From Baffinella frigidus (Eukaryota; Cryptophyceae; Cryptomonadales; Baffinellaceae), in contig MU646319.1 of the NCBI GenBank assembly GCA_026770585.1, positions 694,143 to 714,655 of the forward strand: a stretch of DNA of 20,513 nucleotides. Direction: 5' to 3'. Below the pieces are notes generated by a model, which had not been told where the DNA came from, ran no database searches, and was given only the letters and a program-made list of their open reading frames with translations. This document shows positions 11,475-20,472 of the stretch, in pieces; the first letter of the stretch is position 1, and every line of letters starts with the position of its first letter. The position numbers were made by a program, and so were the translations under genes.

Positions 11475-13649
11475 TTGCGGCTTCAGGAACTGATCATCCT
11501 TATCAAATTCCTCTTCCGACTCCCGGTTCGTGTACGACTTGAAGCCCCCCTGTTGCACCTGGGGTAGCGTTTGGGGTTTAGGGTTTAGAGTTTAGGGTTT
11601 AGGGTTTAGGTTTAGGGTTTAGGGTTAAGGTTTAGTTTAGGTTTAGGGTTTAGGTTTCAGGTTTTAGGATTTAGGGTGTAGGTTTAGGGTTTAGGGTTTA
11701 GGGTTTAGGTTTTAGGGTTCAGGTTTTAGGATTTAGGGTTGAAGGTTTAGGGTTGAAGGTGTAGCACCCTCTGGATGCACGGCGCCGCCCTGCCCTCCGT
11801 CCCGTGCTTCGATATGCAGTTGTCCACTGCAGCCTGGTGCGTAGGTTCGACGTCAGGGGGGATTCCGGGGAATGCGGATCACCGAACACCGGGGAAATGC
11901 GCATCACGGGAATCAACCGCTGTTCTCCCCTAATATGGAGTTAGTCTGCTGGAGTAGCCGCTTCCCGTTCCCACCGCCGCAGCAAGCGCTGAAAGGGGGT
12001 CTTCAAAGAGGCAGGCAACCGCTCTCGATCGGGTAAAGAACATTTTAAAAGTCCAGGTCCGGAATCCGGACCTGGGTTCAGGTACAAATATTTAAAATCA
12101 TCATGTTGTACCCGTCCCGCTCGAGAGCGGCTTGCAAGTGGAGAGCGGGAATCTGTCACTGCCTTGACCGAGCTCTGAGCTTCTTCAAACGAAACAGAGC
12201 CGAAAGAGGTGTTCACGCGGTTTCGAAGCTGGGTTGATCGAACGCGGGGTGTGGGGTCAGGGTCTAGGGTCTAGGGTCTAGGGTCTAGGGTCTAGGGTCT
12301 AGGGTCTAGGGTCTAGGGTCTAGGGTCTAGTGTTTAGGTTGTAGGATTTGGGATTTCGGGTATAGGGGAATACCAGCTCCTTCTTGAGCAGCTCCATGCG
12401 CTCCGAGTACGACTTCAGCCCCTGCAGATTTCGGGGTTAGGGTTTAGGGTTTAGGGTTTGGGGTTTTGTTTTTAGGGTGTGGCGTTTAGTGTTTAGTGTT
12501 TAGTGTTTAGTTTTGTGTTGAGAGTTTGGGGTTGGAGGTTTAGGGTGTGGCGTTTAGTGTTTAGTGTTTAGTGTTTAGTGTTTAGTTTAGGGTTTAGGGT
12601 TTAGGGTTTAGGGTTTGGGTTTCGGGGTTTCGGGTTGCCTGGAGGTCGTCGAGCTTCTTCTCGAGCGCGCGCGTCTTGGCGTAGATCGGCTCCGCGGCCT
12701 TGACGTAGTCGTCGACGGACGGCGCGGTCGCCATGCTCTTCGCGAGCACGTCGATGCGCGAGCCGTAGATGTTGGGGCCCTCCTCCCCCTCGGGGAAGTC
12801 GAACTTGAACCCCGCCCAGTTCCCGAGGATGGCGACCGTCTCGGGCGGCGGCGCGGGGTGCTCGAGGCGGTGCATGCGCTTCTCGAGCGCCGCGGTCTCC
12901 TTGCGGAGGTTCTTCGACGCCTTGAACTCTTTGATGCGCTTGCCGACCATGGCGATTTCGCGCTCCAGCTGGCACATCTCCCCGCAGATGGGCGGCGCGA
13001 GCTCGCGCACGCGCTTCTCCGCCTCGTCCATCCGCTCGTCGAACGACGGCGCCTTTGTCACGACCCCCTTGAAGATCTTCCCCGCCACCATGCCCGACAC
13101 CGCCGTGCCCGGAGCCACGAACTGGTCGCTGAGCAGCTTCACCGACACGACGCCCTCGTCGGGCTCGCCCAAGATGTTGGACTGAATCTTCCCCTGGACC
13201 GTGATGGCCTGCAGCGACCGGACCTTTCCAGTGAAGTCGACCGTGTCAAACTGCTTCTGGCCGTCCGCCGCCAGCATGGGCTCCCGCACTTTGCCCTTCA
13301 CAATGCTGCCCACTTTCAGCTTCTGCATCGCCGACTGGGGCATGTCCACGTGGATCACATGCCCAGGCGGGATGGGGTCTGACGAGCTCGCCAGCGCCAT
13401 TGTCGGCGCCGCGAGAGAGTCCTGGCGCTGCTGTGCCGACAGGTCCACCATCGACAGCTGCTGCGAAGCAGCCCCAGCCCCGGCGTACTTCGCGCGCTGC
13501 ACGGCGGACATGTCCGTGAAGGTCACCTGCGGGCCCGACTGCAGCAGCGAGCTCCTCCCTGAACCCACGGTGCATAGCGCCACCAGCGTGACCGCCAGCA
13601 CCCCCGCGACGGCCGCCACGAGTTGCCTCCCCAACGACGCCGGCACCAT
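11319..13649 (-). CDS. Three-exon N-terminally membrane-anchored coiled-coil protein
   Basis: Exons 13649-12639, 12421-12374 and 11558-11319 join in phase 0 throughout and give about 432 residues. The ATG at 13649 (context GGAAATGG) is preferred because it is followed at once by a hydrophobic anchor (VAAVAGVLAVTLVALCTVG); an out-of-frame ATG lies upstream at 13677. Next come two similar short motifs (MSAVQRAKY, LSAQQRQDS), a beta-rich domain (GSIVKGKVREPML...VSVKLLSDQFVAPGT), a CGEMC motif and long heptad-like helices rich in Glu/Lys. Exon 2 encodes GLKSYSERMELLKKEL. Intron 1 has a GC donor (CAG|GCAACC). Exon 3 crosses a 32-base C-run (11441-11472), so the frame beyond it is insecure; a phase-0 donor CAG|GTACTT at 11345 could lead to further exons. 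No family recognised. Confidence 0.7.
11441..11472. repeat. Poly-C run, 32 bases
   Basis: An uninterrupted homopolymer within the third exon of the minus gene; it would encode poly-Gly on the coding strand. Prone to length change or sequencing error. Confidence 0.9.
11569..11765. repeat. Telomere-like block in intron 2 of the minus gene
   Basis: GGGTTTAGGGTTTAGG on +, hence CCCTAAA on the coding strand. It begins about 10 bases from the acceptor at 11559. Confidence 0.9.
12019..12130. mobile_element. Foldback element inside intron 2, with a 23-nt palindrome
   Basis: Arms CCGCTCTCGATCGGGTA (12019-12035) and TACCCGTCCCGCTCGAGAGC (to 12130). A separate palindrome CCAGGTCCGGA-A-TCCGGACCTGG lies at 12053-12075. 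Confidence 0.65.
12255..12360. repeat. GGGTCTA heptamer array
   Basis: About ten successive copies of GGGTCTA, a variant of the telomere heptamer seen nowhere else in the window, followed by degenerate units up to the donor of intron 2 at 12373. Confidence 0.9.
12430..12635. repeat. Telomere-like block filling intron 1 of the minus gene
   Basis: TTTAGGG, TTTAGTG and TGTGGCG variants on +. Two stretches of GTGTGGCGTTTAGTGTTTAG (about 12477 and 12545) show duplication of a higher-order unit. Confidence 0.9.
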
Positions 13650-13938
13650 TTCCCCAGGGGGCACCAAAAATTGACATTTGGGTTCACTCAACTGGACAAA
13701 GAGTCAAAAGTTGACAACAACTGACTCGTGTGAGATGACCTGAAAGGCCGCTCAACGGCTCTCGCTCTTGAGAACCAACCTCCCAACACTCTTTCCACCG
13801 GTCAGCACCTCCGCGGGACGTGAACATCCTTGTCAACTCCCTCGCCGCATCAACGCTCCCAGTGGAGGAAAAATCAACTGCCCAGCTTGGGTCTCTCCCT
13901 GACCGCTAGCCGATAGATACTTCCTTTTCGGAACGGAG
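13650..13938. promoter_or_regulatory. Putative bidirectional promoter region
   Basis: The 289 bases lie between the divergent start codons at 13649 (-) and 13939 (+). No telomere repeat or foldback occurs here, unlike most of the window. No motif is named with confidence; promoter function is inferred from position. Confidence 0.45.
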
Positions 13939-19571: not shown

Positions 19572-19574
19572 CTG

Positions 19575-20472
19575 TCAGTGTCCGAGGCCCCGGAGCGCGA
19601 GGACGATGAGGTCACGTGACTTCACGGAATCAGCTACCAGGAACATGACTGCCTTGTCGTAGTCCGCACCCTGTCGAGAGAACAACATCCGTTTATTGCG
19701 GATCGGAGTCAGGATGGCACCCGTGTACCCCCGTCCGGCAAGGCAACGCGTTTGTGTCGGAGTTCCCCGGAGCACATGCTTCAGATTCTCGGTGGCGTGC
19801 GGGGAATGCAAGGGTGCTCTGCCAGTGGTGTCTGCATCATGCCTCGGAGTGTTTCTGCAGTACCTTCCCGAGGACGACTTGCATCATCGAGGCGTGGCTT
19901 CGCTCAGCATACGCCTGATTTAGGGTTTCGGGTTTCGTGTTTCGGGTTTAGGGTTTCGGATTTCGGGTCTCGTGTCTCGGGTTTCGTATTTCGTGTTTCG
20001 GGTTTCGTGTTTGGAGGTAGGGGTTTGGGGTTTAGGGTTTCGTGTTTCGTGTTTCGTGTTTCGAGTTTCGTGTCTCGTGTTTCGTGTTTCGTTTTTCGTT
20101 TTTCGTTTTCCGTATTTCGTGTTTCGTATTTCGTACTTCGGGGTTTCGTGATTCATCTTGCGTGTTTCGAGTTTCGGGGTTCGGGGTTTGTACCTGCACA
20201 TACCCCGCCTCGATGCGCGTGTGCAAGATCACTCTATTCCGGTCCGCTATCCCTTAAGTGACCAACGGGTGATGCGGGTTTCGTGTTTCGTGTTTCGGGT
20301 TTCGTGTTTCGAGGTTTCGGGGCTCGTGTTTCGGGGTTTGTGTTTCGTGTTTCGGGTTTAGTCAGGGTTTAGTTAGGGGTTAGGGTGCACGGTGTACCTG
20401 GACGTAGCCCGCCTCGATGCGCGTGCGCGATATCACTGTATTCCTGTCCGCATCGTGCACTTCCAGGTGCGA
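19575..20472 (-). CDS. 3' part of an unrecognised gene: three exons, 5' end beyond the window
   Basis: Exons 20472-20398 (25 codons, starting SHLEVHDADRNTVIS, ending RIEAGYVQ), 19914-19864 (AYAERSHASMMQVVLGK) and 19670-19575 (GADYDKAVMFLVADS...LALRGLGH then TGA). All junctions are phase 0. Each has a CAG acceptor, and the two internal donors are CAG|GTACAC and AAG|GTACTG. The last acceptor follows TTGTTCTCTCGACAG. The first intron is telomere-like repeat, C-rich in sense, and contains a second copy of the first exon's end. The last intron (19863-19671) has no heptamers; part of it is also open in frame. I do not recognise the family. Confidence 0.6.
19920..20190. repeat. GTTTCGT/GGTTTCG heptamer block in the minus-gene intron
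   Basis: Dominated by GTTTCGTGTTTCGT, a variant distant from TTTAGGG but with the same 7-bp period. On the coding strand it reads ACGAAAC. The block continues at 20275-20392 with more TTTAGGG-like units at its right end. Confidence 0.9.
20194..20250 (-). repeat. Second copy of the exon end of the 20472-20398 exon
   Basis: Reads DRNRVILHTRIEAGYVQ with donor CAG|GTACAA; it matches the true exon's last ~55 bases with about ten changes. An in-frame TAA precedes it, so it cannot be entered by read-through. Confidence 0.75.

Follow-up and report, generated by a model that had tools for sequence, protein, structure and literature searches.

Mass intron gain is still an open question, for which transposon-like introners are the best documented large-scale route. 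Introners are found as many introns of one genome that share their sequence and carry short target repeats. There are families in which the element contributes the 3' splice site while the 5' splice site stems from the target copy, and target-site duplications or terminal inverted repeats are displayed by some families, not by all (PMC9860276). In the cryptophyte Baffinella frigidus, many introns likewise share one sequence and have short repeats at their junctions. What they have in common is a 7-bp satellite that varies in length, a telomere-like heptamer of the TTTAGGG type. It was analysed in a stretch of 20,513 nt, below called the window (C17:694143-714655 of the 382,457,362-bp, 1,364-contig genome), and in genes elsewhere in this genome. 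Among 77 vetted introns, 32 from many genes consist of heptamer array over more than half of their length (array-majority introns). Almost certainly, telomere-like repeats form a genome-wide intron class in this species with a strong bias for the C-rich sense, i.e. for CCCTAAA on the coding strand.

Telomere-type tracts inside chromosomes are also known from mammals, where they were inserted at double-strand breaks. Flank duplications were found there in few cases and ascribed to staggered breaks. In humans, introns harbour 31% of these tracts, which matches the chance expectation, and an effect on splicing was left open (PMC7215372). By contrast, the Baffinella tracts form whole introns and have a strong sense bias. 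Intron gain by repair of staggered breaks or AGGT duplication shares with them the short direct repeats and the AG|GT-type sites, and direct repeats accompany 43% of the gained Daphnia introns (PMC3443670). However, these gains are not described there as one repeat class, whereas Baffinella employs a single satellite class, and the stem 'telomer' is absent from the main text of this intron-gain review. In yeast, the orientation of a telomere repeat placed in a reporter intron affects the spliced mRNA. That intron is artificial, and the C-rich sense is the more harmful one: it cuts spliced mRNA more than the G-rich sense (PMC9272169). Introns made of telomere repeats were not reported in the titles and abstract openings of the top-ranked open-licence papers. 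The main text of the Baffinella genome paper, which presents an assembly of 534.5 Mbp for Baffinella sp. CCMP2293, contains neither 'intron' nor 'telomer' (PMC9756366). The heptamer introns bear on gene prediction in cryptophytes and may reveal an overlooked route of intron gain. Their orientation bias is a natural experiment on the requirements of a spliceable repeat.

A note on the window made from its letters alone, the original prediction, had named these introns introner-like. The direct repeats at the junctions of array-majority introns agree with this. The introner survey, however, removed low-complexity families (PMC9860276), so that the heptamer introns would probably have been discarded; since they fail this filter, they are not filed here as introner members. 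We read them as introner-like introns of a low-complexity kind, mostly in one orientation, for which telomerase, telomere capture or a transposon may have been the agent.

Heptamer arrays and introns in the window

Two heptamer units, CCCTAAACCCTAAA, occur within 2 mismatches at 313 places in the window, compared to 0.25 expected from 100 dinucleotide shuffles. A hidden-Markov Viterbi labeller with C-rich and G-rich states assigned 4,456 of the 20,513 nt to arrays (on the + strand 2,528 nt C-rich and 1,928 nt G-rich); in three Markov-1 control sequences it labelled 0, 63 and 12 nt. In the entire genome, (CCCTAAA)3 was counted 27,288 times in forward and 25,832 times in reverse orientation, the reversed pattern 14 and 13 times. 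This means that interstitial telomere-like DNA is a genome-wide feature.

The introns aligned in the window belong to two genes on opposite strands. The first one comprises the following features:

13939..18308, + strand, MORN5-like gene with an acidic N-terminal exon, an IQ-like segment and MORN repeats
13939-14529, 15319-15381, 15643-15717, 16496-16552, 16963-17004, 17234-17296, 17513-17560 and 18228-18308, + strand, its exons
14530..15318, + strand, intron 1, phase 0, 85 nt of C-rich array (15232-15316)
15382..15642, + strand, intron 2, phase 0, C-rich array 257 of 261 nt
15718..16495, + strand, intron 3, phase 0, C-rich array 425 of 778 nt
16553..16962, + strand, intron 4, phase 0, C-rich array 399 of 410 nt
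17005..17233, + strand, intron 5, phase 0, C-rich array 212 of 229 nt
17297..17512, + strand, intron 6, phase 0, C-rich array 207 of 216 nt, CAGGCT at both junctions
17561..18227, + strand, intron 7, phase 0, C-rich array 579 of 667 nt

The product matches MORN5 in PDB (9fqr, E=1.6e-12) and the Pfam family MORN, the sole family above the cut-off when four proteins were compared with Pfam. All seven introns are supported by spliced protein-to-DNA alignment, in which 15 of 16 homologues served as guides; the start, the stop and the boundary at 17296 were taken directly from the sequence. When the aligner was rerun with splice-site scores removed, the seven introns kept their lengths with shifts of at most 7 nt, and the acidic first exon acquired four short introns that are spurious. 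The GC-AG donor of intron 6 was set by hand, as the aligner had placed it 3 nt upstream, at 17294.

The second gene, gene 1, is composed as follows:

9710..13649, - strand, gene 1, identical over the 353-aa query to Baffinella frigidus T484DRAFT_1877322
13649-12639, 12421-12374, 11833-11768 and 11558-about 11365, - strand, exons from protein-guided alignment
about 9793-9710, - strand, C-terminal exon, placed by eye against the deposited protein P0017; exons between 11365 and 9793 tentative
12422..12638, - strand, intron 1, phase 0, GC-AG, array 208 of 217 nt, C-rich in sense
11834..12373, - strand, intron 2, phase 0, array 121 of 540 nt, mostly CCCTAGA units
11559..11767, - strand, intron 3, phase 0, array 200 of 209 nt
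9402..9705, - strand, Viterbi-labelled array, G-rich on the + strand, adjoining the C-terminal exon

The query was a 353-residue peptide that joins exons 1 and 2 and matches P0017 with 100% identity and coverage. Donors and acceptors of the three introns, all in phase 0, agree under P0017 (identical) and P0018 (83%). With P0026 as guide (57% identity), according to its label translated from an MMETSP transcript, the same introns are obtained, with one donor displaced by 3 nt. Extra introns near the low-complexity protein ends differ between the three guides and were excluded. Gene 1 had been predicted to end near 11319, but the C-terminal residues of P0017 can be read at about 9710-9793, and the array at 9402-9705 is probably the last intron (exon ...KDN / VMSQW). 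A run of 32 C at 11441-11472 lies in the coding sequence, where the deposited protein is poly-glycine, too.

Across both genes, eight of the ten aligned introns are array-majority, in line with the prediction that introns here are mostly built of CCCTAAA-class heptamers. Their repeat sense flips between the MORN5-like gene (+) and gene 1 (-) and, outside the window, between TCP-1 genes, as had also been foreseen. The arrays are not 'always' C-rich, as was claimed: MORN5 intron 1 contains a clean 26-nt G-rich tract at 15127-15152, the clearest exception within the window, and intron 3 a weak one of 22 nt at 15756-15777.

Array sense in genes placed by homology

For the sample beyond the window, TCP-1/Cpn60, kinesin and HSP70 genes were located in the genome by Pfam search, so that the strand was fixed by protein homology before the repeat sense was determined. 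TCP-1 genes from 4 of 4 contigs, 29 of 45 kinesin exon matches (20 regions) and HSP70 loci from 3 of 8 contigs were used; HSP90 gave one short match. In total, 77 introns of 21 genes (33,715 bp) were vetted by hand with the array content visible. For kinesin, 16 regions were aligned and four were not; 18 of 36 proposed introns were dropped, and those with good exons on both flanks and GT-AG ends were kept by judgement, two of them, on C657, positioned by eye. Left out were one artefact intron in MORN5 exon 1, the last CCT1 and the first CCT4 intron as well as, due to poor alignment, 8 of 10 proposed introns at the HSP70 locus on C226 and 7 of 7 at that on C1133. A 12-nt duplicated exon in CCT6 was merged away before counting. 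Five additional 10-kb samples (38,624 N of 50,000) had too few exons and do not enter the counts.

On the coding strand of this sample, arrays amount to 11,902 nt C-rich and 686 nt G-rich. Arrays are present in 61 of the 77 introns, mainly C-rich in 59 and mainly G-rich in 2, and 31 of the 32 array-majority introns are C-rich. The two senses, whose equality in a genome-wide count had been named in the original prediction as its refutation, are clearly unequal in this sample. One HSP70 gene has 17 introns, of which 13 carry a C-rich array and none has G-rich bases. CCT1 is encoded on the + strand, CCT4, CCT6 and CCT3 on the - strand, and the repeat sense flips with the strand, apart from minor G-rich pieces. 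The 20 kinesin regions comprise 17 that are mainly C-rich in sense, 1 that is mainly G-rich and 2 without arrays (4,487 vs 537 nt). One mainly G-rich intron belongs to a kinesin gene on C657 (see below), where the preceding intron, placed by eye, is C-rich; the other one, the first intron of CCT1, is counted because of a label of 16 nt. Besides the intron-dense HSP70 gene on C62, two opposed HSP70 genes are found at C709:130108-134621, each a single uninterrupted 1,824-bp match, with identical scores.

It is highly improbable that this pattern is an artefact of gene models that follow the repeats or of repeats misplaced in the assembly. Repeat-rich regions are hard to assemble, the introns were hand-vetted, and the models originate from protein alignment. 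Yet the strand of the TCP-1, kinesin and HSP70 genes was set by homology before the repeat sense was considered. Only after removal of the arrays does CCT1 become colinear with its guide (residues 9-538), and likewise two thirds of an HSP70 (residues 166-612). For gene 1, the entire 353-aa query (100%), the first junction included, agrees with the deposited protein. Alternatively, the bias might be caused by a strand-dependent process in transcribed DNA, e.g. R-loops or transcription-coupled instability that removes tracts with G-rich RNA. The bias does track the direction of transcription, but the G-rich tract on C657 persists in a transcribed intron, and we consider such a process rather improbable.

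The bias was also approached by a genome-wide pattern count. CCCTAAACCCTAAA followed by GCAGGT within 30 nt, the C-rich sense, occurs 479 times (297+182), and TTTAGGGTTTAGGG followed by GCAGGT within 30 nt, the G-rich sense, 224 times (127+97); reversed-pattern controls gave 0. These numbers include overlapping starts, at least on the forward strand (reverse strand alone 182 vs 97), and part of the 224 G-rich cases arise within the array itself through TGCAGG variants. Among the matches listed for contigs C1 to C54, a hand count of distinct ends yielded 73 C-rich and 36 G-rich cases. With a C before GCAGGT, there were 29 and 4 in the same matches, a contrast that is partly compositional because a C-rich tract more often leaves a C at this position. 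Thus, the C-rich bias shows genome-wide, and the pattern count alone falls short of near-exclusivity. In a local count at 67 loci, the G-rich form with GCAGGT was found 0 times; the C-rich form was counted there only with the looser CAGG (16 matches in 13 partly overlapping loci), so that the two figures are not comparable.

The C-rich sense is poor in splice-like dinucleotides. CCCTAAA itself and its commonest variants CCCCAAA, CCCTGAA, CCCTCAA, CCCTACA and CCCGAAA contain neither AG nor GT. Among the first 38 introns, the C-rich arrays contain AG at 0.40 and GT at 0.45 of the expectation from composition. In the full set, A>G was observed 97 times at unit position 5, where no AG is created, and 16 times at position 6, where AG is created; A>C was found 72 and 68 times at these positions. 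Intron sequence outside the arrays has little C/G skew (0.293 vs 0.258, mildly C-skewed). This variant pattern fits avoidance of splice-like signals. A strict exclusion of AG from the arrays was considered as well and dropped, as the CCCTAGA units of gene 1 intron 2 contain AG in sense. The original prediction had further proposed branch-point-like sites within the C-rich strand. Between -60 and -12, the looser CTNAM is present in 25 of the 32 array-majority introns, but the consensus CTRAY only in 6.

Splice sites of the 77 introns comprise 74 GT and 3 GC donors and 77 AG acceptors, and their boundaries restore the reading frame. All three GC donors are found among the 32 array-majority introns, none among the 45 others. 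Every junction of the window genes had been predicted to be in phase 0. This holds for all ten introns aligned there, but in the wider sample for 52 of 75 introns, and phases 0/1/2 are distributed 21/7/2 in array-majority introns (two unassigned) and 31/10/4 in the others. Since both classes are alike, phase 0 is a general habit of the sampled introns and not, as had been assumed, a mark of the class. The same applies to stop codons, which had been regarded as a special feature of array introns. This idea was abandoned: upon retention, an in-frame stop would arise in 28 of 30 array-majority and in 44 of 45 other introns.

Array edges, junction repeats and a proposed origin

In the 32 array-majority introns, the array starts at a median of 4.5 nt behind the donor and stops at a median of 5.5 nt before the acceptor, with a few cases at 38-122 nt. 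In most of these introns, the intron is the array. To analyse the junctions, the bases that follow the donor were matched with those that follow the acceptor. At +3 to +8, array-majority introns have 2.03 matches of 6 compared to 1.46 after permutation (p=0.0005, n=32), other introns 1.80 compared to 1.55 (p=0.046, n=45). When only phase-0 introns are considered, the values are 2.29 and 1.48 for array-majority introns (printed p=0.0000 with 10,000 permutations, n=21) and 1.55 and 1.47 for the others (p=0.35, n=31). No match excess was found by permutation in the windows -8 to -2 and +9 to +14 of the 77-intron sample. A display cut for junction repeats was passed by 8 of 59 introns, and all 8 are array-majority, as are 29 of the 59. 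Examples are gtatacat / ATATACAA in MORN5 intron 4, gtgctaca / GTGCAACA in gene 1 intron 3, gtcattcc/GTGATCCC in CCT1 and CAGgtcttcga/CAGGTGTTCGA in HSP70, the latter also given as gtcttcga / GTGTTCGA. One kinesin intron displays an imperfect repeat of ~20 bp. We read these repeats as the expected trace of an insertion with a short target duplication, in which the donor would lie in the upstream copy.

On balance, it appears somewhat probable that many Baffinella introns are telomere-like tracts that turned into introns immediately upon their insertion into exons. A tract would enter a staggered break, or be inserted by a transposase, and some 6-8 bp would be duplicated. The upstream duplicate at the intron start would provide the GT or GC donor, the 3' edge of the tract, next to the second duplicate, the (C)AG acceptor, so that splicing would restore the old reading frame. 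Tracts in G-rich sense would mostly be lost, because TTTAGGG brings an AG and a GT with each unit and possibly quadruplex RNA. Later, slippage and unequal exchange would make local variants uniform (CCCGAAA, CCCCAAA, CACGAAA, CCCTAGA) and give rise to copies of adjacent exons. Of the accounts considered, insertion with target duplication has the best support, although it is unproved. That capture of telomere fragments or telomerase action at staggered breaks serves as an intron factory throughout the genome of this lineage is a more tentative proposal, which we regard as possible and still doubtful. If true, telomere maintenance and intron gain would be one process, and duplicated broken ends together with the tract orientation free of splice signals would leave a ready-made intron after each repair.

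According to another explanation, old ordinary introns were colonised: telomere-like seeds expanded by slippage, and the G-rich sense was purged because it spoils splicing. In agreement with this, arrays make up the minor part in 29 of the 61 array-bearing introns, local variants are homogenised, and both classes have a similar phase distribution. But one heptamer class in unrelated genes is unexpected from local slippage alone, and arrays extend to a median of about 5 nt from both splice sites. Furthermore, array-majority introns have the stronger excess of direct repeats, and among the other introns the phase-0 subset shows no significant excess. Colonisation seems fairly unlikely. The heptamer repeat might also be the cargo of a transposon-type agent. 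The combination of a target-derived donor and an element-side acceptor is reported for introners (PMC9860276), and the junction-repeat excess stops at about +8. However, the heptamers of most of the 32 array-majority introns are flanked by only a few other nt on either side, which leaves little space for conserved termini. Cargo seems quite improbable.

A number of observations speak against the account of insertion and sense bias favoured here. The kinesin intron C657:15827-15950 has a G-rich tract directly after its GTGAGT donor and is a real exception, and the dropped HSP70 locus on C1133 exhibits a weak bias (68 nt C-rich vs 37 nt G-rich). The GCAGGT count amounts to a two-fold excess only and is without a neutral control hexamer. 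As the aligner and also the vetting favour GT-AG, the tallies of donors and acceptors are in part a product of this preference. The direct-repeat excess is modest (~0.6 of 6 positions in 32 introns), carried by a minority and weakly seen in introns that are not array-majority, too; moreover, the junction test was picked after the first junctions had been seen and was applied to growing nested samples and several windows. In the four contig ends that were read, no clear telomere was found. Finally, the scarcity of AG-forming variants was measured in intron arrays only, a CCCTAGA block exists inside gene 1 intron 2, and the orientation effect of the yeast reporter is opposite to expectation (PMC9272169). 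For these last three reasons, the explanation of the sense bias by splicing can only be inferred, and in view of the yeast result the splicing rationale for the C-rich sense given in the original prediction cannot simply be transferred.

Exon copies and further features of the window

Several arrays are accompanied by copies of exons. MORN5 intron 3 carries a second copy (47 nt, 95.7%) of the preceding exon at 15983-16029. A 106-bp tandem repeat in intron 7 includes the beginning of the following exon twice, each time in partial form (17995-18034 and 18101-18138). A third gene is probably located near the right end of the window:

19584..20502, - strand, candidate third gene with a coding-biased exon at 19584-19667
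19919-20189, 20276-20361, 20373-20396 and 20475-20502, - strand, its arrays, C-rich in sense

This candidate contains two similar exon copies, 20194-20240 and 20398-20446 (85%). A similar pair (84%) is found in the region 2866-2982, where 2939-2982 is a copy of a presumed exon. Such copies probably result from tandem exon duplication via recombination between arrays. Across the window, partly broken copies of neighbouring exons with 82-96% identity occur near heptamer arrays.

Further arrays were assigned by Viterbi labels, the second and third also by the coding bias of their neighbours:

329..606, - strand, array, C-rich in - sense
2579..3161, arrays, C-rich in - sense, left of the - strand coding segments 4069-4434
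7075..7489, + strand, C-rich arrays downstream of + strand coding-biased segments (5093-6340)

The coding segments at 4069-4434 have the homologue P0029 (89% over 65% of the query). An Rfam scan of the window yielded no family above the gathering score, and in two scans of viral contigs no relatives of gene 1 or the MORN5-like gene were found.

Apart from heptamers, the window comprises tandem repeats at 1486-1600 and 3729-3950 with units of 18/38 bp and 74 bp. Palindromic elements with inverted arms of 42-71 bp are located at 2235-2408, 9131-9255, 14763-14939, 18835-18965 and at other positions. Several of them have CCTAGG-type centres and the end TACAGGGGTACCTCGCTCA, and they resemble small inverted-repeat transposons.

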